64,000 nucleotides of DNA. Source: Kyrpidia sp. (lineage in GTDB: Bacteria > Bacillota > Bacilli > Kyrpidiales > Kyrpidiaceae). This document shows, piece by piece, positions 4,581 to 64,000 of this stretch. Below the pieces are notes generated by a model that saw only the letters and a program-made list of their open reading frames with translations, had not been told where the DNA came from and did no database searches. Position 1 is the first letter of the stretch. Each line of letters opens with the position of its first letter. A program made the position numbers and the translations under genes. Where the stretch lies: NCBI GenBank assembly GCA_029960885.1, contig JASBVV010000046.1:41895-105894 (forward strand), written 5' to 3'.

Positions 4581-5045
4581 ATGGCAAGAAAACGGGTCAC
4601 CGCAGTGGTGGAGGAACTCGCCCGCCCGATTGTCGAGGGCGAGGGACTGGAACTGGTGGACGTGGAATATGTCAAAGAAGGTGCGAACTGGTTTTTGCGG
4701 GTGTTCATCGATCGCCCGGAAGGCGGGGTCGACATCGACGACTGCAGTCGGGTGAGCGAACGTTTGTCCGATCGCCTGGACGAGGTCGACCCCATCCCCA
4801 ACAGCTACTTCCTTGAGGTTTCCTCGCCCGGCGTCGAGCGGCCCCTTAAAAACATCGACGCCCTTCGCCGGGCCGTGGGCCAAACCGTGTCCGTGACCAC
4901 GTACGAACCGATCGATGGACGGAGGGCATTTCAGGGAGTGCTGACCGGGGTCGACGAGGATGAGCTCCTGGTGAAAGACGGGGATATCACATGGAACATC
5001 CCGTATCGCGCGGTGGCGTCTGCGCGCACGGTCTTTCTGCCGTGA
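4581..5045 (+). CDS. rimP: Ribosome maturation factor RimP
   Basis: [34 protein letters not shown]…; position upstream of nusA. Confidence 0.93.
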
Positions 5046-5083
5046 CCGGGGCATCGTGGAGGAAGGGGGAGGCACCGGCCGTC

Positions 5084-6241
5084 ATGAACCAAGATTTTAT
5101 TGAAGCGCTGGATCAGTTGGAGCGGGAGAAGGGCATTAGCAAAGATGTCCTGATCGAGGCCATCGAGGCCGCTTTGATTTCCGGATACAAGCGGAATTTC
5201 AACTCCGCGGCCAACGTGCGGGTGGACGTCAACCGGGAGACCGGCGACGTGAAGGTCTTTGCCAGAAAAACCGTCGTGGAGGAACCGGACGATCCCCGAT
5301 TGGAGATTTCCGTCGACGCGGCGGAGCAGATCAGTCCGCACTACACCGTGGGGGATGTCGTGGAAATCGAGGTCACTCCGAAAGACTTCGGTCGAATAGC
5401 CGCTCAAACGGCCAAGCAGGTCGTCACCCAGCGAATTCGCGAGGCCGAGCGGGGCCTGATTTACAACGAATATGTCGACCGGGAGGAAGACATCGTCACA
5501 GGGATCGTTCAGCGCCAAGACGCCCGGTACACGTACATTGATCTGGGAAAGGTCGAGGCGCTGCTGCCCTTTCATGAACAAATCCCCGGAGAAAAGCTCA
5601 AACAGGGCGACCGGGTGAAATGCTATATCACGAAGGTGGAGAAAACCACGAAGGGGCCTCAGGTGTTGTTGTCCAGAACGCACCCGGGCCTTCTTCGCCG
5701 GTTGTTTGAATTGGAAGTGCCCGAAATCTACGACGGTGTTGTGGAAATCAAATCGGTGGCCAGAGAGGCCGGGCATCGGTCCAAGATCGCCGTCCATTCC
5801 CGAAAACCCGAGGTCGATCCCGTGGGTGCCTGTGTCGGACCCCGGGGTATGCGGGTCCAGCACGTCGTGGCCGAATTGCACGGGGAGAAAATCGACATCG
5901 TCAAATGGAGTGAAGATCCGGGTGAATTTGTGAAACATGCCCTGAGCCCGGCCAAGGTGGTCAGCGTCGATGTGTCGGAGACCGAACGCCTCGCCCGGGT
6001 GGTCGTGCCGGACTACCAACTGTCCCTGGCCATTGGCAAGGAAGGTCAGAATGCCCGCCTTGCGGCCAAATTGACGGGGTGGAAAATCGACATTAAGAGC
6101 CAGTCCCAGGTCGAGTCGGCCGACGCCGCCGTCGTCCCGGAAGAGAGGGACGAGCGGGAGGGTCCGGAACCGGATTGGTCCGCCGCCGACGAAGGGTCCG
6201 AGATCCCGGAGAACGAGTGGGCCGCGGAGCGGCCGGAATGA
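5084..6241 (+). CDS. nusA: Transcription termination/antitermination factor NusA
   Basis: MNQDFIEALDQLEREKGISKDVLIEAIEAAL…; S1 and KH domain sequence. Confidence 0.97.
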   Translation: MNQDFIEALDQLEREKGISKDVLIEAIEAALISGYKRNFNSAANVRVDVNRETGDVKVFARKTVVEEPDDPRLEISVDAAEQISPHYTVGDVVEIEVTPKDFGRIAAQTAKQVVTQRIREAERGLIYNEYVDREEDIVTGIVQRQDARYTYIDLGKVEALLPFHEQIPGEKLKQGDRVKCYITKVEKTTKGPQVLLSRTHPGLLRRLFELEVPEIYDGVVEIKSVAREAGHRSKIAVHSRKPEVDPVGACVGPRGMRVQHVVAELHGEKIDIVKWSEDPGEFVKHALSPAKVVSVDVSETERLARVVVPDYQLSLAIGKEGQNARLAAKLTGWKIDIKSQSQVESADAAVVPEERDEREGPEPDWSAADEGSEIPENEWAAERPE

Positions 6242-15405: not shown

Positions 15406-15421
15406 TGGCATCAAATTTGCT
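15406..15421 (+). promoter_or_regulatory. Sigma-54-type -24/-12 promoter upstream of the DUF4242-like gene
   Basis: TGGCATCAAATTTGCT (TGGCAT-N5-TTGCT; GG-N10-GC spacing). Confidence 0.75.
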
Positions 15422-15874: not shown

Positions 15875-15890
15875 TGGCACGTTTTGTGCT
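15875..15890 (+). promoter_or_regulatory. Sigma-54-type -24/-12 promoter upstream of adh
   Basis: TGGCACGTTTTGTGCT (GG-N10-GC spacing; one mismatch in the -12 block). Confidence 0.65.
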
Positions 15891-15972: not shown

Positions 15973-17028
15973 ATGAGAGCTGCTCGATTGATTGAACACA
16001 AGAAACCCCTCCCTGTCATCGAAGTCCCCGATCCAAACCCCGGCCCCGGAGATGCGGTGCTTCGTGTGGAGGCCTGCGGAATTTGCCGCAGCGACTGGCA
16101 CGCATGGCAAGGCGACTGGTCGTGGATCGGACTTTCCCCGGAACTCCCCATTACACCCGGGCACGAGTTTGGGGGCGTGGTGGAAGAGGTCGGAAAGGAT
16201 GTGAAGAATTTTCGAAGAGGGGACCGGGCCACTGTACCCTTTCATGCCGGTTGCGGTCATTGCGAGTATTGTTTGAGCGGGGTTCCCAATCTGTGTGAGA
16301 ATATCATGATCTACGGATTGGTGTCCGGATTCGACGGCGGATATGCTCAATACGTTCTGGTGAAAAATGCCGACTTCAATCTCATCCCTCTTCCGGAGAA
16401 TGTGGATGGGGTTACGGCGGCCGCGATTGGCTGTCGTTACATGACGGGGTACCACGGTGTGGTTCGAGGCCGCGTTCAGCCGGGAGAATGGGTCGCGATT
16501 CAAGGGGCGGGGGGCGTCGGCCTGTCCGCCGTGCAGGTGGCCACGGCGTTGGGTGCCCAAGTGATCGCCGTGGACATCGATGACGAAAAACTCGAAAAGG
16601 CGCGGCAAGAAGGTGCCGCGGCCACGATCAATGCAAAACGGGAAAACGTGCCGGAGGCCGTCAAAGAGATCACCAAGGGTGGGGCTCACGTGGGAATTGA
16701 TGCGCTGGGGGTCCGGGATACGGTGCTCAACTCCGTTCTCTCCCTGCGGAAGGGTGGCCGGCATGTCCAGGTTGGACTGACCACCTCGGAAGAGGGAGGG
16801 ATGGTTTCGCTGCCCGTGGACATGATCACGGCAATGGAGTTGGAGTTTGTGGGCAGCCTGGGCAATCCGCATCCTGCGTATCGGGGGCTCCTGAACCTGG
16901 TGTCCTCCGGGCGACTGAATCCCAAGTCCTTGGTGAGCAAGGAAGTCGGTCTGGATGATGTGTCTCAAACTTTTGAAGATATGAACCAGTTCCGCACCAA
17001 GGGTTTTCATGTCATCACGAAGTTTTGA
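15973..17028 (+). CDS. Zinc-dependent medium-chain alcohol dehydrogenase
   Basis: CGICRSDWHAWQGDW, GHEFGGVVEEVG, structural Zn site CGHCEYCLSGVPNLC, Rossmann GAGGVGLSAVQ. Confidence 0.93.
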   Translation: MRAARLIEHKKPLPVIEVPDPNPGPGDAVLRVEACGICRSDWHAWQGDWSWIGLSPELPITPGHEFGGVVEEVGKDVKNFRRGDRATVPFHAGCGHCEYCLSGVPNLCENIMIYGLVSGFDGGYAQYVLVKNADFNLIPLPENVDGVTAAAIGCRYMTGYHGVVRGRVQPGEWVAIQGAGGVGLSAVQVATALGAQVIAVDIDDEKLEKARQEGAAATINAKRENVPEAVKEITKGGAHVGIDALGVRDTVLNSVLSLRKGGRHVQVGLTTSEEGGMVSLPVDMITAMELEFVGSLGNPHPAYRGLLNLVSSGRLNPKSLVSKEVGLDDVSQTFEDMNQFRTKGFHVITKF

Positions 17029-17471: not shown

Positions 17472-17487
17472 TGGCATATTTCATGCT
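17472..17487 (+). promoter_or_regulatory. Sigma-54-type -24/-12 promoter upstream of sDIMO alpha
   Basis: TGGCATATTTCATGCT (GG-N10-GC spacing; -12 ATGCT vs TTGCT). Confidence 0.65.
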
Positions 17488-17622: not shown

Positions 17623-19247
17623 ATGGCTTCACCCGCAGCGTTTATCAACAAAGTTCATGAGCGGATTCCGGCGTTGGACTGGGATCCCCAGTATGCCGGC
17701 CGTCCTGAGAAGTACCCCACTGCCTATCGTTTTCCAAAGAAATCGTCCAAAGACCCCATGAAACAAATCCTTCCTCGTATTTTCCGATGCAAGCGGAGAA
17801 AGACACCCGGGTCTTTGGGGGTCTCGACGCGGCGCTCCGGGGCAACATGTTCCAGAAACTTTCCCCGCGGTATACGGAGTGGCTCAAACCGTTTCTCGCT
17901 GTCTTTCCGTTTATTGAACTGCAGGCCGCCCACGCCATGTCCAATCTGGTCAACGCCGTTCACGCCCCGGAATTGCACAACGGGTACGCCCATCAGATGA
18001 TCGATGAATTTCGCCATGCCAACATTCAGCAGAATCTGGCGCGGTATTACATGGAGCATTACGTGGACCCGTGGGGATTTAACAACAACAACCTGATGAA
18101 TGTCACCACCCCGGTGGGCGCCATCGGTCGACAGTTTGCCGAGGGGTTCACCGCCGGAGACGCCGTGAGCGGTGCGAACATCTTCTTGCAGGTGGTGGCG
18201 GAGACCGCCTTCACCAATGTCTTGTTTGTGGCGAACCCGTCCGAAGCGGCGGCCAACGGCGACATCGCACTGCCTTCGGTGTTCCTGTCCGTTCAATCGG
18301 ACGAAGCGCGGCACATCAACAATGGCTTTGCCACCTTGTCCCTGGCACTGGAAAACCCGGACAATCACCCGCTGATCGAACGGGATCTGCGGTACGCCTT
18401 TTGGCTGCTTCACACCGCAGTGGACGGCATCATGAGTGTCATCCTGGAGTACGGGGACGAAACCCGGCGGCCCGACAAGCCCGCGTACTATGAGCTGTGG
18501 AAGCGGTGGATCTATGACGACTACTATCGCACCTATCTGCTTCCGCTGGAGAAGTACGGCATCCGGGTGCCCACCGATTTGGTGCAGGAGATCTGGGAGC
18601 GCTTTACCGTGAAGGATTGGCACCACAAACTCGCGATCGAACTGTCGGCCATGTGGATGTTCAATTCCTGGCGGTTCGATCCGTTGAACGAACGGGACTT
18701 CGAATGGTTTGAGAAAAAATATCCCGGGTGGTATTCGAAGTTCGGCACCTATTGGGAGAATTATCGCCGGCTCTCGGTGCCCGGTCCCGGGCAAAGCCCT
18801 CCTTGCCTGGCGGGCATCGGCCACGTCTTGCCCTACACGTGCTACACCTGCCTGGAGCCCATTGCCATCCGCGAAGAGTTGCAGATCGCGGAACACGACG
18901 GTCAAGTGTACACGTACTGCTCGGACGCGTGCAGGTGGATTCACGAAACCACCTTGACGGACCCGACGCCCATGGTGCGCTTGTCTCCGCCCGAGTCCCG
19001 CATCTTCACGGAGATTCATGCGGGTGAGTCTTTGGAAGAGGCGCTTCGTTCCAGCGGGTTGGTGCGCAGTGACGGGCAGACGTTGGTGGCTCAGCCCCAC
19101 CTGTTATTTGACGACAAATACATGTGGCGTCTGGAGCACCTTCCGAACATCGAGCTGCCCCGCCAGTTGGGGGACTTGACCCGGATGAGCCCTGAACAGC
19201 GGACCCAAGTGGTGAACGAATATCGCAAGGGCATCCAATTTCACTGA
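17623..19247 (+). CDS. Soluble di-iron monooxygenase hydroxylase alpha subunit (propane/methane monooxygenase-like), frame-broken near 17770-17780
   Basis: DEFRH and DEARH di-iron motifs; C-terminal Cys motif (CYTCLEP…YCSDACRWI). N-terminus MASPAAFINKVHERIPALDWDPQY… with RBS is in a different frame from MQAEKDTRVFGGLDAALRGNMF (17787). Confidence 0.9.
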
Positions 19248-53773: not shown

Positions 53774-55321
53774 TCACAAGGGAATGTTGCCGTGTTTTTT
53801 CCCGGGTCGGGATTCCTCCTTGCCCTCGAGAATTTCCAGGGACTCTTTTAGTTTACGCCGAGTTTCCCGGGGATCGATCACATCGTCGACCATGCCGTAG
53901 GAGGCCGCGACATAAGGATTCGAGAATCGCTCGCGGTATTCGGCAATTTTCTGGGCCCGGGTGGCCGCGGGATCGGGACTTTCTTCGATTTCCTTGGCAA
54001 AAATGATGTTCGCCGCCCCTTCGGGCCCCATCACCGCCACCTCGGCGATGGGCCAAGCGTAGACCAGGTCCGCCCCGATGGCCTTGCTGTTGAGAGCCAC
54101 ATACGCTCCGCCGAACGCTTTGCGCAGAATCACCGTGATCTTCGGCACCGTGGCTTCGGAATAGGCGTACAGAATCTTGGCCCCGTGCCGGATAATCCCG
54201 CCGTGCTCCTGTTTGACCCCGGGAATGAATCCGGTGACATCCTCGAATGTGATGATGGGAATGTTGAAACAATCGCAAAACCGGATGAACCGGGCGATTT
54301 TGTCCGACGAATTGATGTCCAGACCCCCGGCCATGAATTTCGGATTGTTGGCCACAATCCCCACGGGCCGGCCGTCGATCCGGGCGAAGCCCACCACCGC
54401 ATTTTTCGCGAACTGGGCGTGAACCTCCATGAAATCCCCGTCGTCCACCACCCGCTCGATAACCCTGCGGACGTCGTACACCTTCGTCCCGTCCACCGGC
54501 ACGAGGTCGATCATCTCCTCGTCCCACCCGTCGTCATTCCGAACCGGACGCCGGGGCGGCCGTTCCCGGCTGCTCGACGGCAGAAAATCCAGAAGCCGCC
54601 TGACCTGACCGAGCACCTCTGCCTCATCCGGCCCGGTGAAATGGGCCACTCCGCTGAGGGACCCGTGCACCCGGGCCCCACCGAGATTCTCCGAGCTGAT
54701 CGACTCTCCGGTAACCGCCTCGATCACCTTGGGCCCGGTGATAAACATCTGGCTCGTCCCTTCAACCATAAAGATAAAATCCGTGATCGCCGGGGAATAC
54801 ACGGCGCCCCCGGCACACGGCCCCATGATCACCGAGATTTGCGGCACCACCCCGGAATAGATGGAATTCCGGTAGAAAATCTGTCCATATCCGTCCAGGG
54901 ACACCACCCCTTCCTGGATGCGGGCGCCCCCGGAGTCGTTCAGCCCAAGGATGGGACAGCCGTTTTTCGCCGCCAGATCCATGATCTTGGCGATCTTTTG
55001 CGCGTGCATCTCCCCCAGGGCCCCTCCGAACACCGTGAAATCCTGGGCGAAAATGTACACCGTCCGGCCGTTGATTTTCCCGTAACCGGTCACCACTCCT
55101 TCGCCGGGCGCGTCCATCTGATCCATGCCGAAGAGGGTTCCCCGGTGTTCGATAAACGGATTTAACTCCCGAAAGGTCCCGGGATCCAGAAGAAGGTCAA
55201 TCCGCTCCCGTGCGGTGAGTTTGCCGCGGTCATGCTGTTGGGCAATCCGCCGGTCTCCGCCGCCCAGTTCCACCTTCCTCCGGCGCTCTTCCATATCGAG
55301 GATTTTTTCGATCAACGACAA
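53774..55321 (-). CDS. Acyl-CoA (propionyl/methylmalonyl-CoA) carboxyltransferase subunit
   Basis: LTARERIDLLLDPGTFRE; LGLNDSGGARIQEGV; FIPGVKQEHGGIIRHGAKILYAYSEATVPKITVI. Confidence 0.93.
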   Translation of the reverse strand: MSLIEKILDMEERRRKVELGGGDRRIAQQHDRGKLTARERIDLLLDPGTFRELNPFIEHRGTLFGMDQMDAPGEGVVTGYGKINGRTVYIFAQDFTVFGGALGEMHAQKIAKIMDLAAKNGCPILGLNDSGGARIQEGVVSLDGYGQIFYRNSIYSGVVPQISVIMGPCAGGAVYSPAITDFIFMVEGTSQMFITGPKVIEAVTGESISSENLGGARVHGSLSGVAHFTGPDEAEVLGQVRRLLDFLPSSSRERPPRRPVRNDDGWDEEMIDLVPVDGTKVYDVRRVIERVVDDGDFMEVHAQFAKNAVVGFARIDGRPVGIVANNPKFMAGGLDINSSDKIARFIRFCDCFNIPIITFEDVTGFIPGVKQEHGGIIRHGAKILYAYSEATVPKITVILRKAFGGAYVALNSKAIGADLVYAWPIAEVAVMGPEGAANIIFAKEIEESPDPAATRAQKIAEYRERFSNPYVAASYGMVDDVIDPRETRRKLKESLEILEGKEESRPGKKHGNIPL

Positions 55322-55344: not shown

Positions 55345-56175
55345 CTATTCATCCACGCGCTGGCAAAACTCGGTCAACACGCCGCCGGTGCTCTTGGGGT
55401 GCACAAAAGCGATCAATTTCCCGTGTCCGCCCGGACGGGGCTCCTCATCAATCAACCGGCATCCCGCTTCCCGGGCCCTTCGCAGGCGCTCGGCCACGTC
55501 CTTCACTCGGTAGGCCACGTGGTGAATCCCCGGCCCGCGCTTGTCCAAAAACTTGGCAATCGGGCTGTCCGGAGCGGTGGGTTCAAGCAGTTCGACGGTG
55601 CTTTCCCCAACGGCCAGAAAGGCTGCGGTCACCTGCTGGTCCTCAATGACCTCTTGGTGAATCACCCGCATGCCGAGCTGTTCCGTATAAAACGGCAAAG
55701 CCTCCCGCAGGGACGGGACCGCGATCCCGATGTGGTCGATCCGATCCGGGGGCTCCGGAATGTCCTGCGGCACCTCTTTCCTTCGAACGTGGGTCCGGAT
55801 AAACTCCACCGTCTCCTGAATCGACGTCCCCGGTGTGAATACCTCGGCAATTCCCGCCTCTTTGAGGGCCGGGATATCCTCCCGGGGGATGACGCCGCCG
55901 CCCACCACCAGGATGTCGTCCGCCCCCTGTGCCCGAAGCAGGCGAACCACTTCGGGAAACAGCTCCATGTGGGCGCCGGACAAAGACGACAGACCGATAC
56001 AGTCCACATCCTCCTGGAGCGCCGCCGCCACGATCTGTTCCGGCGTCTGCCGCAATCCGGAGTAGACGACCTCCATACCGGCATCCCGCAGGCCCTGGGC
56101 GATCACCAGGGCGCCCCGGTCATGACCGTCGAGACCGGGTTTAGCCACCAACACGCGAATTGTCCGTTCCGCCAC
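55345..56175 (-). CDS. Fusion: methylmalonyl-CoA mutase B12-binding subunit + methylmalonyl-CoA epimerase
   Basis: N-terminal [32 protein letters not shown] (DxHxxG); C-terminal [24 protein letters not shown]…GIHHVAYRV glyoxalase fold. Confidence 0.92.
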
Positions 56176-56233: not shown

Positions 56234-57898
56234 TCACCACTGTGCGGGCCGATACTCGCCAAAGACATCGCGCAACACGCCGCAGATCTCTCCCAGGGTC
56301 GCGTACCCCCGCACCGCATCCACAATGTACGGCATCAGATTGTCGGTTCCCTGCGCCGCTTCTTTCAACCGGGCCAGCGCCGTTTCAACCTCCGCGGCGC
56401 TGCGGCCGGCGCGGAGGTCCGCCAGTTCCTTCCTTCGCCGTTCTCCCAGTCGGGGATCCACCCGCAAGAGTTCCGGTTCGGGCTCGTCCTCCACCCGGAA
56501 TGCGTTGACCCCGACCACGATCTCTTCACCGTTCTCCACGGCCATCTGGGTTCGGTAGGCGGCATCCCGGATTTCCCGCTGCATATATCCCGCCTCGATG
56601 GCCTGAACCGCGCCGCCCATCTCGTCGATCTTTTCAATGTATTCCATGGCCCTGCGTTCAATCTCATCGGTCAACTCCTCGACATAATACGAACCGGCCA
56701 ACGGATCCACCGTGTCCGCCACGCCGCTTTCAAACGCGATAATCTGCTGCGTCCGCAGCGCGATCCGCGCCGACTCCTCGGTGGGCAACGCCAGGGCCTC
56801 GTCCCGGCTGTTCGTGTGGAGGCTCTGGGTGCCGCCGAGCACCGCCGCCAGGGCCTGGATCGTCACCCGTACAATGTTGTTATCCGGCTGCTGGGCGGTC
56901 AGGGTCGATCCGCCGGTCTGCGTGTGGAAACGCAGTTGCCACGATTTGGGATTTTTCGCTCCAAAGCGCTCCCGCATAATCCGGGCCCAAAGCCGCCGGG
57001 CCGCCCGGAACTTGGCGATCTCCTCGAAAAAGTGATTATGCGCGTTAAAAAAGAAGGAGAGCCGCGGCCCGAACGTATCCACATCGAGCCCCCGCTTCAC
57101 CGCCGCCTCGACGTAGGCGATGGCGTTGGCCAGTGTAAAGGCCACCTCCTGCACCGCCGTGGAGCCGGCCTCCCGGATGTGATACCCGCTGATGCTGATG
57201 GTATTCCATTGGGGCACTTTTTCACTGCAGTAGGCGAAAATATCGGTGATCAGCCGCATGGAAGGCTTCGGCGGAAAAATATATGTTCCCCTGGCCACGT
57301 ATTCTTTCAGGATATCGTTCTGGGTCGTCCCGCCCAGTTTTTCGGACGGGACTCCCTGCTTTTCTCCGACAACGATGTACATCGCCAACAGCACCGCGGC
57401 CGGAGCGTTGATCGTCATCGACGTCGTGACCTTGTCCAGTGGGATCCCGTCAAACAACTGCTCCATGTCCGCCAACGAGGAGATGGCCACCCCCACTTTG
57501 CCGACTTCGCCCCGGGCCATGGGGTGATCGGAATCGTACCCGATCTGTGTCGGCAGATCGAACGCCGTGGAGAGCCCGGTCTGCCCTTGTTCCAACAGAT
57601 ACCGAAACCGCCGGTTCGTCTCCTCCGCCGTTCCGAACCCGGCGTATTGACGCATCGTCCAGAATCTTCCGCGATACATGGTCCGCTGAACCCCTCGGGT
57701 GAAGGGGTACTCCCCGGGAAACCCGACGTTTTCCATGTAGCGTTTGAGTTCCTTTTTGTCGCCGCAGCGGGGGACGTACAGCCGCCTGACGACAATGCCC
57801 GACGAGGTCACAAAGGATTCCTTCCGTTCGGGTCGCTTTTTCACCGTCTGTTCCGTTTTCTTTTCCCATTCTTCATACCGCTGCTCAAAATCGGACAC
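56234..57898 (-). CDS. Methylmalonyl-CoA mutase large (catalytic) subunit
   Basis: [62 protein letters not shown] start 57898. Confidence 0.93.
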
Positions 57899-58130
57899 CC
57901 TTCTCACTCCTCTTTCCCAGCCCGCCGTAACCCATTCGATTATAGCATCCGGCGTTAGGATGCGCACCGGCGGAAAAGGCAAAGCCCGCCGAATCGACGG
58001 GCCGACATCGTGGGCCTCGGACACCTCCAGACGCAGGGACGCTACGACCATCGCGTGTCCGCCACCGGCGGGGCCGTGCATACCGCCCGCCGCGAGAGCG
58101 TCGCGGCGCCCCGTATCGTTTTCAGGCGGA

Positions 58131-59054
58131 TCAGCGGCGGGCCTCCGCACGGTCCCGAACCCCCCGCACCTGTTCGTGGGCGTGATAGGAACTGCGGACC
58201 AGCGGTCCCGACTCGACATGTCGAAACCCTCGTTTGAATGCCTCGTCGCGAAGCCGGTCGAACTCCTCCGGAGTGTAATACCGATGGACTGCCAGATGTT
58301 TCCGGGTCGGCTGCAGGTACTGACCCACGGTGAGGATGTCGCAATCCACCGCCCGGAGGTCGTCCATCGTTTCCAGGATCTCCTCCCAGGTCTCCCCGAC
58401 GCCGACCATGATGCTCGACTTGGTGGGAATGCCCGGCGCCAGCGATTTCGAGCGCCGCAGCAGCTCCAGGGACCGATCGTATTTCGCGCGGGAACGCACC
58501 CGGTCCGAGAGCCGCCGGACCGTTTCCACGTTGTGATTGAGGATGTCCGGCTCGGCCGCAAGCACCGTCCGGAGCGATTCTTCCCTGCCCTGAAAATCCG
58601 GAATGAGCACTTCCACCGAGCATTCCGGCGCCCGCCGGCGGATCGCCCGGATGGTGGCGGCAAACACCTCGGCCCCCCCGTCCTCCAGATCATCCCGGGC
58701 CACCGAGGTCACCACCACATGGCGCAGCCCCATGGCCACCACCACCTCGGCCACCCGTTCCGGCTCCTCCAGGTCCAGCTCCGTCGGCCGGCCGCTGGTC
58801 ACCGCACAGAACCGGCAGGCCCGGGTGCAGATTCGCCCGAGGATCATGAACGTGGCCGTCCGATGGGACCAGCACTCATAGATATTCGGGCAGCGGGCCT
58901 CTTCGCAGACCGTGTGAAGAGTCTGCCCCCGCATCAACGATTTGAGTTCGCGGAAATTCTCGTTGGTCCGCAAATGGATTTTAAGCCAATCGGGACGGTG
59001 AGCCGGCCGCCCGGCCGTTTCCTCCGTTCCGGAAAGCACCCGCAATTCCTCCAT
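58131..59054 (-). CDS. lipA: Lipoyl synthase
   Basis: [13 protein letters not shown] and radical [11 protein letters not shown] motifs. Confidence 0.95.
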
Positions 59055-59080: not shown

Positions 59081-60439
59081 CTAGATCCCGATGTCCTCCC
59101 GGTAGGCTTCCAGCCGCCCTTTGATGCTCTGCAGGAATCTCCCGCAAATCCATCCGTCCAACACCCGATGGTCCAAAGACAAACAGAGGTTTACCATGGA
59201 TCGGACGGCGAGCATGTCGCCGGGCATCACCACCGGGCGCTTCGCGATGGCTTCCACGCTGAGGATCGCCGCCTGGCCCCCGTTGAGAATGGGTTGGGAC
59301 AATACCGACCCGAATGCCCCGGTGTTGTTCACCGTAAAGGTCCCTCCCTCCACATCCTCCATGCGGAGCCTGCCCCGGCGGGCCTTGGAGGCCAGATCGT
59401 GCACCGCGTGAGCCAATCCGGTCACCGACAGCCGGTCGGCGTCGCGGATCACAGGCACCCACAGAGCATCCTCGCTCGCCACCGCCACCGAAAGATGGAT
59501 CCGTTTTTTTATTATAATCCGATTGTCCGCCCAGGTGGAGTTCAGGATCGGGTATTCCCTCAGGGTATCCGCCACCGCTTTGAGGAAGAAGGGTAGGTAT
59601 GTCAGAGGAATGCCCTCCCGGCGGCGAAACTCCTCCTTCAACCGCTCGCGCAGGCGGACCAACCCGGTGACATCCGCCTCTACCATGGTCCAGGCGTGGG
59701 GCGCCGCATGCACGCTTTCCACCATGTGCCGGGCGATGGCCCGGCGAATCGGCGAAGCCTCGACGATCTCGACATCCTCTTCAGGGGAAACGTCCGAAAC
59801 CTGCGGCCCACCCGGCGCGGTCCCCCCGGCGGTTCGCACCGGATTCCCGGTCCGCTGCGCCGACTCCGGCCCGAAGGCCGGCCGCGCCAACCAGGCCAGC
59901 ACATCACGCCGGGTTACCCGCCCGCCGGCCCCGGTGCCGGGAATCTGCTCCAGCCGTAAGCCGTACTCCCTGGCCAGTTTCCGGACGGCCGGCGAATAGC
60001 GTCCTCTCAGGGAATCCATTCCGACGTGCGACAGGGCGAACCCTGCTTCCCGGCGCCTCCGGTTCCCTGCCGCTTCCCGGGCGGCAACCCCGTGCGGCAG
60101 CCCGGACCCCGCCTCCGGAGCGGCCCATGACGATTCGGCCGCCCCGGCCGCCGTCTCTGCGGCGGGGGCGGAGGAGATCTCCGCCCCCCCGGCGGCGGCC
60201 GTCTCAAACGCTTCGATCAAGGCGACCGGCGTACCCGCCGGCACCGTTTCTCCTTCCCGCACGAGGCATTGCATCAGGATGCCCCCGGTGTCGGCGGGCA
60301 GTTCCGCCGTCACCTTATCGGTGATCACTTCGGCGATCGGTTCATATTTATGCACCGTCTCTCCGACCTTTTTGAGCCAGCGGGACAACATTCCCTCGGT
60401 GACACTCTCCCCCAACTGGGGCATTTTGATTTGGATCAT
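59081..60439 (-). CDS. Branched-chain 2-oxoacid dehydrogenase E2
   Basis: Lipoyl domain (AEVITDKVTAELPAD), PSBD, catalytic C-terminus LSLDHRVLDGWICGRFLQ. Confidence 0.92.
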   Translation of the reverse strand: MIQIKMPQLGESVTEGMLSRWLKKVGETVHKYEPIAEVITDKVTAELPADTGGILMQCLVREGETVPAGTPVALIEAFETAAAGGAEISSAPAAETAAGAAESSWAAPEAGSGLPHGVAAREAAGNRRRREAGFALSHVGMDSLRGRYSPAVRKLAREYGLRLEQIPGTGAGGRVTRRDVLAWLARPAFGPESAQRTGNPVRTAGGTAPGGPQVSDVSPEEDVEIVEASPIRRAIARHMVESVHAAPHAWTMVEADVTGLVRLRERLKEEFRRREGIPLTYLPFFLKAVADTLREYPILNSTWADNRIIIKKRIHLSVAVASEDALWVPVIRDADRLSVTGLAHAVHDLASKARRGRLRMEDVEGGTFTVNNTGAFGSVLSQPILNGGQAAILSVEAIAKRPVVMPGDMLAVRSMVNLCLSLDHRVLDGWICGRFLQSIKGRLEAYREDIGI

Positions 60440-60451
60440 TTCGCCCCCTCC

Positions 60452-61435
60452 TCAAAACCGGGCCAACTCCCGCATCGCCCGGGCCATGCGGGGAACCGTT
60501 AACACATATTCTTTTTCCAGGTCGGGGTTAAACGGCATGGCCGGAACCTCCGGTCCCGCCAAGCGCATCACCGGGGCATCCAGGGAAAAGAGGGCCTTCT
60601 CGGCGATGAGGGCCGCCACCTCCGCTCCAACCCCGCCCACTTTGTTATCCTCGTGAACAATCATGACCTTCCCGGTTTTTTCGGCCGCCTCGAGGATCGC
60701 CGACTCGTCCAGCGGGCGCAGACTTCGCAGGTCCAGGACATGCGCGGAAATTCCCTCGCCCTGCACGACGTTCGCCGCCTCGAGGACCGTGTGGAGCGTC
60801 ATCCCGTAGGAAATGACCGTGATGTCCGTCCCCTCCCGGGCCACCCGGGCTGTGCCGATGGGCACCGTATAATCCGCCTCGGGCACCTCGCCCCTGATGG
60901 ACCGATAACATTTTTTGTGTTCGAAAAACAGCACCGGATCATCGTCCCGGATCGCCGCCTTGAGCAGCCCCTTGACATCGTACGGAGTGGCCGGCGCCAC
61001 CACTTTGAGGCCAGGAATGTGATAGAACAAGGCCTCCACGCTTTGAGAGTGGTACAGGCCGCCGTGCACACCGCCGCCGTAGGGCGCCCGGATCACCAGC
61101 GGGCAATACCAGTCGTTGTTCGATCGATAACGCATTTTGGCCGCCTCACTGATGATCTGGTTCACCGCCGGCAGGATGAAATCGGCAAACTGGATCTCTG
61201 CCACAGGCCGCATGCCGTACAAAGACGCCCCGATCGCCACGCCCACAATGGCCGACTCCGCCAGCGGCGCATCCAGCACCCGCTCCGCTCCAAACTCCTC
61301 CAAAAGGCCCAGGGTGGCCCGGAACACGCCGCCCCGGACGCCCACATCCTCACCGAGGACGAAAACCGACGAATCCCTAGCCATTTCCTCCCTCAGCGCG
61401 TCCCGCACCGCTTCGATATACGTTTTCAGCGCCAT
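60452..61435 (-). CDS. Branched-chain 2-oxoacid dehydrogenase E1 beta
   Basis: MALKTYIEAVRDALREEMARDSSVFVLGEDVGVRGGVFRATLGL. Confidence 0.94.
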   Translation of the reverse strand: MALKTYIEAVRDALREEMARDSSVFVLGEDVGVRGGVFRATLGLLEEFGAERVLDAPLAESAIVGVAIGASLYGMRPVAEIQFADFILPAVNQIISEAAKMRYRSNNDWYCPLVIRAPYGGGVHGGLYHSQSVEALFYHIPGLKVVAPATPYDVKGLLKAAIRDDDPVLFFEHKKCYRSIRGEVPEADYTVPIGTARVAREGTDITVISYGMTLHTVLEAANVVQGEGISAHVLDLRSLRPLDESAILEAAEKTGKVMIVHEDNKVGGVGAEVAALIAEKALFSLDAPVMRLAGPEVPAMPFNPDLEKEYVLTVPRMARAMRELARF

Positions 61436-61463
61436 GGCCCTCACCTCCGCCCCGGTTTTCCGC

Positions 61464-62468
61464 TCATCCTTCCCGGTACACGTAACGCAGCAGTTCGTCC
61501 GGATCGGGGCCTTTCGCCCGCTCGGCGTACGCCGTCGCCTCGTCCACTTCCATTTGCACCTCGTGGTCAATAGCCCGCAACTCGGCCTCGCCGGCAACCC
61601 CCGTCTCCGTCAGATATTGTCCGAAACGGAGAATCGGATCGTTTTTTCGGGCCTCCTCCATCTCTTCCCGGGACCGGTAGGCGCGGTCGTCATCATCGCT
61701 GGAATGCGGGGTCAATCGCACCGTTCTCGCTTCGACCAGAGTCGGGCCTTCCCCCCGCCGAGCCCGGTCCGTCGCCGCTTTCATCGCCCGGTACACTTCC
61801 AGCACGTCTCCGCCGTCCACGGCGATCCCCGGCATGCCGTAGCCGGACGCCCGGTCGGCCACACGGGCGGCGGCCAGTTGTTTCCCGGCGGGAACCGAGA
61901 TGGCGTATCCGTTGTTCTGGCAGAAGAACACCACGGGCAGCCGGTGCACCCCCGCAAAATTCAGTCCTTCGTGAAAATCCCCCTGGTTGCTGGAACCTTC
62001 CCCGAACGAGACGTAGGCCACCACATCGTCGCCCCGCATCCGCGCGGCAAGAGCGATCCCGACGGCATGGGGGATCTGCGTGGACACCGGACTCGAGCCG
62101 GAGACGATCCGGTGCCGCCGACTGCCGAAATGGTTCGGCATTTGACGTCCGCCGCTGTTGGGATCCTCGGCCTTGGCGAACGCCGCCAGGAGCAAATCCC
62201 GAACCGTCTGGCCAAAAGCCAGCGCCACGGCCGTATCCCGATAATACGGCAGGACATAATCTTTCGACCGGTCCAAGGCGTACGCGGCTCCGACCTGGGC
62301 CCCTTCGTGGCCTTGACAGGAGATGACAAAAGGAATTTTCCCGGCGCGATTCAGGACCCACATCCGCTCATCCGCCCGGCGCGCCAACAGCATGAGCCGG
62401 TACATGGCCAGGACATCCTCTCGGGAGAGTCCCAGGGCCTCATGGCGATTCCGCATTTCCACACTCAT
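61464..62468 (-). CDS. Branched-chain 2-oxoacid dehydrogenase E1 alpha
   Basis: LYRLMLLARRADERMWVLNRAGKIPFVISCQGHEGAQVGAA; TPP motif GDVLEVYRAMK…HSSDDDDRAYR. Confidence 0.94.
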   Translation of the reverse strand: MSVEMRNRHEALGLSREDVLAMYRLMLLARRADERMWVLNRAGKIPFVISCQGHEGAQVGAAYALDRSKDYVLPYYRDTAVALAFGQTVRDLLLAAFAKAEDPNSGGRQMPNHFGSRRHRIVSGSSPVSTQIPHAVGIALAARMRGDDVVAYVSFGEGSSNQGDFHEGLNFAGVHRLPVVFFCQNNGYAISVPAGKQLAAARVADRASGYGMPGIAVDGGDVLEVYRAMKAATDRARRGEGPTLVEARTVRLTPHSSDDDDRAYRSREEMEEARKNDPILRFGQYLTETGVAGEAELRAIDHEVQMEVDEATAYAERAKGPDPDELLRYVYREG

Positions 62469-62521
62469 CTCCGATGCCTCCTTTGCTCCGAACGCCGTCC
62501 GGGTGATTCCGCCCACGCGGA

Positions 62522-63595
62522 TCAATGGTGAACCACGTATGTGCTGCGCACCTGCCTCAAGACGGCGATCCGCTCCTCTGCCAACCGATCCGCCGCCTGG
62601 TTGGCCGGTATGCCCTTCTTTCTGGCCATCGCCAGGACGTCCCGCACCCGGTCGTAGATCTGGTCCACCCGGGTCCGCACCCGCTCCGGGCTGTAGCCCT
62701 GCATTTCATCGGCCACATGGATGACCCCGCCGGCATTCGCGACGTAATCGGGCACGTACAGAATTCCCCGGGCTTCCAGTTCGGACCCGTGCCGATCTTC
62801 CGCCAGTTGATTGTTCGCCGATCCCGCCACGATCCGGCAGTGCAGCCGGGAGATCGTCCGGTCGTTGATGACCCCGCCCAAGGCACAGGGCGCAAATACA
62901 TCGCAGTCGACATCAACAATCCCGTCCGGATCCGCGCGTCCGGCTCCAAACGCGTGAATGGCCCGCGCGACCGCCTCTTCCCGAAGGTCCGCGACCACCA
63001 GATTCGCCCCGGCGCCGTGCAGAAGCTCGCACAATCGAAACCCCACGCTACCGAGCCCTTGCACCGCCACCGTCCGTCCCGCCGGGTCCTCGCTCCCAAA
63101 GACCTCTTTTAAAGCCGCCTGGATGCTGCGAAACACCCCCAGCGCCGTCATCGGACTGGGATCACCGCCGCCTCCTGAGGATGGAGACACCCCGGTGACG
63201 TAAGGGGTTTCCAGCCGGATCCAATCCATCTCCCGGGTGCCGGTGCCGACATCCTCGGCGGTGATGTACCGGCCGGCCAGACTCTGCACATACCGGCCGA
63301 ACGCCCGAAAGAGGGCTTCGTTTTTGTCCGTCAGGGGATCTCCGATGATCACCGCTTTCCCGCCGCCGTAATTCAGCCCGGCCACCGCCGCTTTGTACGT
63401 CATGCCCCTGGCCAAACGCAGGGCATCGACCACCGCCTCGGACTCGGTCGCATACGTCCACATCCGGCAGCCGCCCAGGGCCGGCCCCAGGGTGGTATCG
63501 TGGATGGCAATGACCGCCCTGAGTCCCGAAGACGCATCCTGACAGAACACCACCTGTTCGTAATCGAACGACGCCATGGTCTTGAAAATATCCAT
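62522..63595 (-). CDS. Leucine/valine dehydrogenase
   Basis: GPALGGCRMWTYATESEAVVDALRLARGMTYKAAVAGLNYGGGKAVI; VQGLGSVG. Confidence 0.94.
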   Translation of the reverse strand: MDIFKTMASFDYEQVVFCQDASSGLRAVIAIHDTTLGPALGGCRMWTYATESEAVVDALRLARGMTYKAAVAGLNYGGGKAVIIGDPLTDKNEALFRAFGRYVQSLAGRYITAEDVGTGTREMDWIRLETPYVTGVSPSSGGGGDPSPMTALGVFRSIQAALKEVFGSEDPAGRTVAVQGLGSVGFRLCELLHGAGANLVVADLREEAVARAIHAFGAGRADPDGIVDVDCDVFAPCALGGVINDRTISRLHCRIVAGSANNQLAEDRHGSELEARGILYVPDYVANAGGVIHVADEMQGYSPERVRTRVDQIYDRVRDVLAMARKKGIPANQAADRLAEERIAVLRQVRSTYVVHH

Positions 63596-63673: not shown

Positions 63674-63689
63674 AGCAAAAATCATGCCA
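63674..63689 (-). promoter_or_regulatory. Sigma-54-type -24/-12 promoter for the leucine dehydrogenase/BCKDH operon
   Basis: Minus strand TGGCATGATTTTTGCT (TGGCAT-N5-TTGCT, GG-N10-GC). Confidence 0.82.
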
Positions 63690-63753
63690 TAAAAAACGGC
63701 GCCGCAGCCACAATCCCGACGCCGAAGGGGACTCCATGAAACGCCCCGGAACG

Positions 63754-63786
63754 TGCAATAAATTTCATTGTATGAAATTTATTGCA
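63754..63786. promoter_or_regulatory. Candidate enhancer (UAS) palindrome for a sigma-54 activator
   Basis: TGCAATAAATTTCAT-TGT-ATGAAATTTATTGCA: perfect 15-bp arms, 65-112 bp upstream of the -24/-12 element. Confidence 0.75.
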
Positions 63787-63857
63787 GGCAAGATCGTTCG
63801 CTCCCTCCCCCTGTCGAGATTCAGGCACCGCAAGCGGAGCGGGGTGAGAGTGCCCCT

Positions 63858-64000
63858 TCACCCCGCCCGGTGGTCTATCCCAAGTTTCTCCAATTTGTAA
63901 TATAAATTACGCACCGAAATCCCCAAGCGCCTGGCCGCCTCTGTCTTGTTGCCCGCGACACCGGCCAGGACCCGCTCGATGTGGGCCCGTTCCGCGGCCC
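63858..64000 (-). CDS. C-terminal Fis-type HTH of a probable sigma-54-dependent activator (BkdR-like), partial
   Basis: Minus strand: AAERAHIERVLAGVAGNKTEAARRLGISVRNLYYKLEKLGIDHRAG*. Confidence 0.85.
   Translation of the reverse strand, partial: AAERAHIERVLAGVAGNKTEAARRLGISVRNLYYKLEKLGIDHRAG

Follow-up and report, generated by a model that had tools for sequence, protein, structure and literature searches.

The region between the activator gene bkdR and a leucine dehydrogenase gene, near the end of the 64,000-nt stretch of Kyrpidia sp. DNA analyzed here (the window), very probably combines a BkdR enhancer with a sigma-54 promoter for an operon of branched-chain amino acid catabolism. The 33-bp palindrome in this region consists of two adjoining copies of a putative BkdR operator that is widely conserved. 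We envisage that BkdR, produced from the gene just upstream, would bind two side-by-side 14-bp dyads through its Fis-type helix-turn-helix (HTH) and thereby be positioned about 70–90 bp upstream of the -24 element. From there its AAA+ ring, via the GAFTGA loop and ATP hydrolysis, would directly drive opening of the sigma-54 polymerase complex at TGGCATGATTTTTGCT, after which bcd-bkdAA-bkdAB-bkdB-lipA-mutase-epimerase-carboxyltransferase would be transcribed. Two PAS domains and an N-terminal Rossmann domain are the probable sensors of the signal, and isoleucine and valine, or their products, are the presumed inducers.

The Activator Gene bkdR

The window ends within bkdR, whose 3' end (63858–64000, minus strand) encodes the Fis-type HTH NLYYKLEKLGIDHRAG and terminates in a stop codon at 63858–63860. 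The gene extends beyond the window to about position 65912 in window numbering and in its entirety (L003:5753–7807, minus strand) encodes a protein of 684 aa. Its domains are a PAS domain (residues 119–218), a second PAS domain (~243–341), Sigma54_activat (368–535), an AAA lid and HTH_8 (638–677), and the sigma-54 interaction domain scored 237.6 bits. The preliminary description of this DNA had recognized the HTH from the 3' end, a call borne out by the whole protein, and had proposed that the lack of a GAFTGA-bearing AAA+ domain past position 64000 would count against an activator. The domain is there and its GAFTGA loop is intact (ESELFGYEEGAFTGAKRGG), so that this objection does not arise, and the two PAS domains precede it.

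Full-length matches to bkdR, with E values up to 1e-130, were found in 167 of the 301 genomes of the class. These orthologues are from many families and have 57–67% identity to the Kyrpidia protein across nearly the full length, including the N-terminal region. A leucine dehydrogenase gene lies downstream of bkdR in all of the named relatives in which the gene end was located (78/78), and an rpoN gene was found here as well as in the genomes of both congeners. By these comparisons, the 684-aa activator is a BkdR orthologue. The likeness to the BkdR/SigL system noted earlier was therefore correct as to the kind of system, but was understated, as the gene is an orthologue of bkdR and not merely similar to it. 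Proteins such as that of L082, which align only from residue 228, could be activators akin to BkdR and not BkdR itself. The BkdR of Pseudomonas is an Lrp-type regulator controlling BCKDH genes that is unrelated in sequence and mechanism, and the two have only the name in common.

The Palindrome Comprises Two Dyads

The palindrome, TGCAATAAATTTCAT-TGT-ATGAAATTTATTGCA, was placed exactly at 63754–63786 (no strand assigned), where it is predicted to act as a composite upstream activating sequence whose position and spacing are kept in relatives. No other inverted repeat of at least 13 nt in the window (arms up to 40 bp apart) has fully complementary arms, and the number of matches with up to three mismatches expected by chance was 0 (100 dinucleotide shuffles). 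Its perfection, as first described, holds, and it is unique in the window and also in the genome assembly (2.04 Mb, 86% complete), in which there is one copy; a repeated element is ruled out by this single copy.

Each 15-nt arm of the palindrome is in itself an imperfect dyad, TGCA-N6-TKCA, and the palindrome resolves into two 14-bp dyads with the consensus TGCAA-N4-TTGCA and centers 19 bp apart. The promoter-distal putative BkdR dyad, TGCAATAAATTTCA (63773–63786, minus strand), is centered 91 bp from the GG of the -24 element, and the promoter-proximal one, TGAAATTTATTGCA (63754–63767, minus strand), 72 bp from it. When the ~64,000 positions of the window were scored with a position weight matrix trained on 78 dyads, all from families outside the window's own, these two sites ranked first and second, with 20.1 and 19.8 bits, respectively, and the next best site scored 10.8 bits. 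Both are 9/10 matches to the consensus, based on the fact that their inner TGCA is replaced by TTCA or TGAA. A possible, weak and degenerate third dyad, CGAACGATCTTGCC (63787–63800, minus strand; 6/10 consensus positions), is situated at the 14-bp step that a third dyad occupies in many relatives. In the congener L169 this position is occupied by TGAATGATTTTGCC, which is the third-best site of that locus at 8.7 bits.

Conservation of the Dyads in Relatives

In the two congeners the pattern TGCA-N6-TGCA-N5-TGCA-N6-TGCA occurs at the same place with no mismatches, while the N6 segments have diverged, and the same dyad element was found in 28 relatives. Once the consensus had been fixed, regions from approximately one genome per further family were added, and a strong dyad was present in 21 of the 23 that had a recognizable promoter. 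Of the 51 regions in all, 48 had dyads in the interval from bkdR to the -24/-12 element, compared to 1.9 expected from dinucleotide shuffles, and 38 had dyad pairs with centers 19–21 bp apart, compared to 0.0 expected; such dyad counts are from related, and hence non-independent, genomes, although these span more than 20 families. A second set, that of the named relatives, had a strong dyad in 71 of 78 members and lacked one in the other seven. The usual arrangement in relatives is two or three dyads at spacings of 14 and 19–21 bp; in the named set the commonest distances between dyad centers are 14, 19, and 20 bp, and in triples the outer two dyads are 33–34 bp apart. The distance from the proximal strong dyad to the GG of the -24 element is mostly 50–52 or 69–76 bp and less often 83–100 bp. 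Two loci of family f3 (L059 and L060) have dyads that match the consensus at 10/10 positions directly after the bkdR stop codon and no -24/-12 element within 450 bp.

These comparisons bear on whether the palindrome might act as RNA, that is, as a terminator or attenuator hairpin of the bkdR transcript, with a promoter that is independent of it. The palindrome is just 3' of the bkdR stop codon, its RNA form would pair over 15 bp around a loop of 3 nt, and the fold of the region is more stable than that of shuffled sequences (z -2.8). However, the stem is AT-rich and is not followed by a run of T, as had been remarked when the palindrome was initially judged not to be terminator-like, and the region has no match in Rfam. 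Pairing in the stem decays in relatives, often to 7–12 of 16–17 pairs, yet the TGCA boxes persist with their spacing, which argues for selection on the DNA dyads and not on an RNA stem. Since the pairing is not kept, we rejected the terminator or attenuator, which we regard as highly improbable, in favor of DNA sites for BkdR.

The same data address the perfect symmetry of the 33 bp, which the preliminary description had treated, with its 15-bp arms, as the functional unit. A functional role for the symmetry itself would imply that BkdR binds as a tetramer or higher oligomer facing both ways, beyond what two dyads provide. Near-perfect composites do recur among Bacillus relatives, with 15 of 16 pairs in L131, L144, and L155. 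Elsewhere the symmetry is not conserved, as 10–12 of 16 pairs are retained in the congeners and 7–11 in many relatives. Nor did cross-arm symmetry exceed that of shuffled pairings in a permutation test of low power (12 dereplicated pairs at each spacing), the values being 118 vs. 115.6 at 19 bp (p 0.31) and 112 vs. 109.3 at 20 bp (p 0.27). The symmetry across both dyads is therefore probably incidental, the result of two good dyads being nearly mirror images by chance, and we consider an oligomer that requires it to be unlikely. The unit that we favor in place of the palindrome is a pair of TGCAA-N4-TTGCA dyads 19 bp apart.

Motif Specificity

AT-rich palindromic sites are typical of many repressors, and the dyads to which we predict that BkdR binds might instead belong to some other dimeric regulator, such as one that represses bkdR or bcd. 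Against this, in one family after another the dyads keep to the interval that separates bkdR from the -24/-12 element, at fixed spacings, and they are upstream of the promoter and not over it. A pattern scan of the window's own genome (assembly 86% complete) returned no second match to the paired motif at up to two mismatches, as expected for the sites of a local activator, and the four other strong sigma-54 activator loci of the genome had no site above 9.5 bits. Among the 78 named loci of 11 kb, the best site was inside the bkdR-promoter interval, which represents 1.3% of the locus, in 59. When three mismatches were allowed, one congener had 8 matches vs. 5 in the control, which is close to the control level, and the other two genomes exceeded it, with 5 vs. 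1 and 10 vs. 1. We consider a regulator other than BkdR to be a very unlikely owner of these sites. Based on the lack of a second paired motif at up to two mismatches in the pattern scan of the 86% complete assembly, BkdR looks like a one-operon activator in this genome.

The Predicted Sigma-54 Promoter and the Putative Downstream Operon

The predicted -24/-12 sigma-54 promoter element, TGGCATGATTTTTGCT, is situated at 63674–63689 (minus strand) and is directed at the leucine dehydrogenase gene. The -24/-12 pattern with up to one mismatch has five matches in the window vs. 2.6 expected, and a lone match is therefore near the chance level. A -24/-12 element is found 3' of bkdR in all 78 of the named relatives in which the end of bkdR was identified. 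The earlier prediction of a sigma-54 promoter upstream of leucine dehydrogenase is upheld by the quality of the element, its conserved position and the presence of rpoN.

The first gene of the putative operon, on the minus strand like all that follow, is bcd (62522–63595), which encodes a leucine dehydrogenase family protein (Glu/Leu/Phe/Val dehydrogenase) and is 83–84% identical to the first operon gene of the congeners. It overlaps by a few bases the next gene, bkdAA (2-oxoacid dehydrogenase E1 alpha, 61464–62525), which is followed by bkdAB (E1 beta of the same enzyme, 60452–61438), bkdB (E2, 59081–60439), lipA (lipoyl synthase, 58131–59054), and genes for the methylmalonyl-CoA mutase large subunit (56234–58000), a B12-binding mutase domain fused to methylmalonyl-CoA epimerase (55345–56175), and a carboxyltransferase subunit of the propionyl-CoA carboxylase beta or MmdA type (53774–55321). 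These eight genes are closely packed on one strand, and based on this spacing we infer that they are co-transcribed; an M20/M28-type peptidase gene is next. Both congeners share this gene order. In these, as in the window, lipA is inside the BCKDH operon, directly after the gene for the lipoyl-bearing E2. The one-frame fusion of the B12 domain and epimerase is widespread in the class, while in other families the two are encoded by separate neighboring genes.

Judged by established biochemistry, the enzymes of this operon would process valine and isoleucine at the BCKDH stage and again at the propionyl-CoA end, where succinyl-CoA is the product. Absent from the gene run are the acyl-CoA beta-oxidation steps that connect these two stages. 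In B. subtilis the bkd operon is ptb-bcd-buk-lpdV-bkdAA-bkdAB-bkdB, and bcd thus belongs to that operon. The two operons are alike in having bcd, E1 alpha, E1 beta, and E2 after one predicted sigma-54 promoter. They differ in that ptb, buk, and lpdV are absent from the window's operon, which has lipA, the mutase, the epimerase fusion, and the carboxyltransferase instead. The preliminary statement that this was a different operon was right with respect to these contents.

Comparison with Known Systems

The arrangement in Kyrpidia resembles the BkdR/SigL systems of B. subtilis and B. thuringiensis in that the activator gene is directly upstream of its target and in the same direction, the activator has two PAS domains, an AAA+ domain and a Fis-type HTH, and a -24/-12 promoter is followed by bcd and the genes for BCKDH E1 and E2. 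In B. thuringiensis HD73, the bkd promoter is TTGGCACGGTATTTGCT, and BkdR has two PAS/PAC domains and is encoded in the same orientation; expression of bkd is sigma-54 dependent and markedly reduced in a bkdR mutant (PMC4428206). An upstream activating sequence has been reported for the control of bkd by BkdR/SigL in B. subtilis (PMC6461809). Brevibacillus, Tumebacillus, Aneurinibacillus, and Alicyclobacillus resemble the window in that bkdR is followed directly by bcd, with the same dyads and a -24/-12 element; they differ in having ~1.4–1.7 kb of other sequence between bcd and E1 alpha, where the window genes overlap. At the B. thuringiensis sox locus, a single inverted repeat upstream of a sigma-54 promoter has been demonstrated by footprinting and mutation to be the site of the sigma-54 activator SoxR (PMC4941409). 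That operator has 11-bp arms that are 7 bp apart and of unrelated sequence, and it serves another regulator and pathway.

In the literature searched, a scope that excluded the original 1999 paper on B. subtilis bkdR, we found no published sequence of a BkdR site motif, and a paper on clostridial sigma-54 regulons had nothing on bkd. The BkdR/SigL mechanism is already known, and we do not claim the operator motif derived here as the first. Our analysis replaces a vaguely defined upstream activating sequence with a specific putative operator, TGCAA-N4-TTGCA, which occurs two or three times at spacings of 14 and 19–21 bp. The operator holds in most of the BkdR-bearing families sampled in the class and should permit BkdR targets to be called from sequence. 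It is displaced relative to the promoter mainly by steps of ~10 or 20 bp, and the spacing between dyad and promoter offers a clean system for the effects of enhancer spacing on sigma-54 activation. In Kyrpidia, the switch would govern an operon whose enzymes appear to bring the carbon of valine and isoleucine through most of the route to succinyl-CoA.

The N-Terminal Domain of BkdR

The part of BkdR that precedes the PAS domains is predicted to be a conserved NAD(P)-type Rossmann domain (L003:7500–7807, minus strand, beyond the window; the equivalent in L088 is 5001–5366). A predicted structure of residues 1–122 of the Tumebacillus orthologue (L088) has a confident Rossmann fold (mean pLDDT 90), and its best matches among solved structures are NAD-dependent dehydrogenases, including a PheF-type aldehyde dehydrogenase with an E value of 2.2e-5. 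The N-terminus of the window's own BkdR has no Pfam family at the default threshold; the family GFO_IDH_MocA was found in 22 of 25 BkdR members at E values up to 1 (best 2.3e-7), and the GxGxxG glycines are largely invariant. Judging from the modeled fold, the domain is a possible redox or ligand input. A more specific proposal, which we advance only tentatively as it is on the doubtful side, is that this domain (residues ~1–90), alongside the PAS domains, makes BkdR responsive to NAD(H) redox state or an NAD-linked ligand. If so, both substrate and redox state would switch branched-chain breakdown via the TGCAA-N4-TTGCA enhancer.

Other -24/-12-Like Sites in the Window

Three further -24/-12-like sites are on the plus strand at 15406–15421, 15875–15890, and 17472–17487. 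Their sequences are TGGCATCAAATTTGCT, which has no mismatches, TGGCACGTTTTGTGCT, which is 83 bp before the start of the zinc alcohol dehydrogenase gene, and TGGCATATTTCATGCT. A clear activator palindrome was not detected next to any of these. The sites are grouped ahead of the genes for this zinc alcohol dehydrogenase (15973–17028) and the large subunit of a methane/phenol/alkene monooxygenase hydroxylase (17787–19247), which suggests a candidate sigma-54-controlled di-iron monooxygenase cluster.
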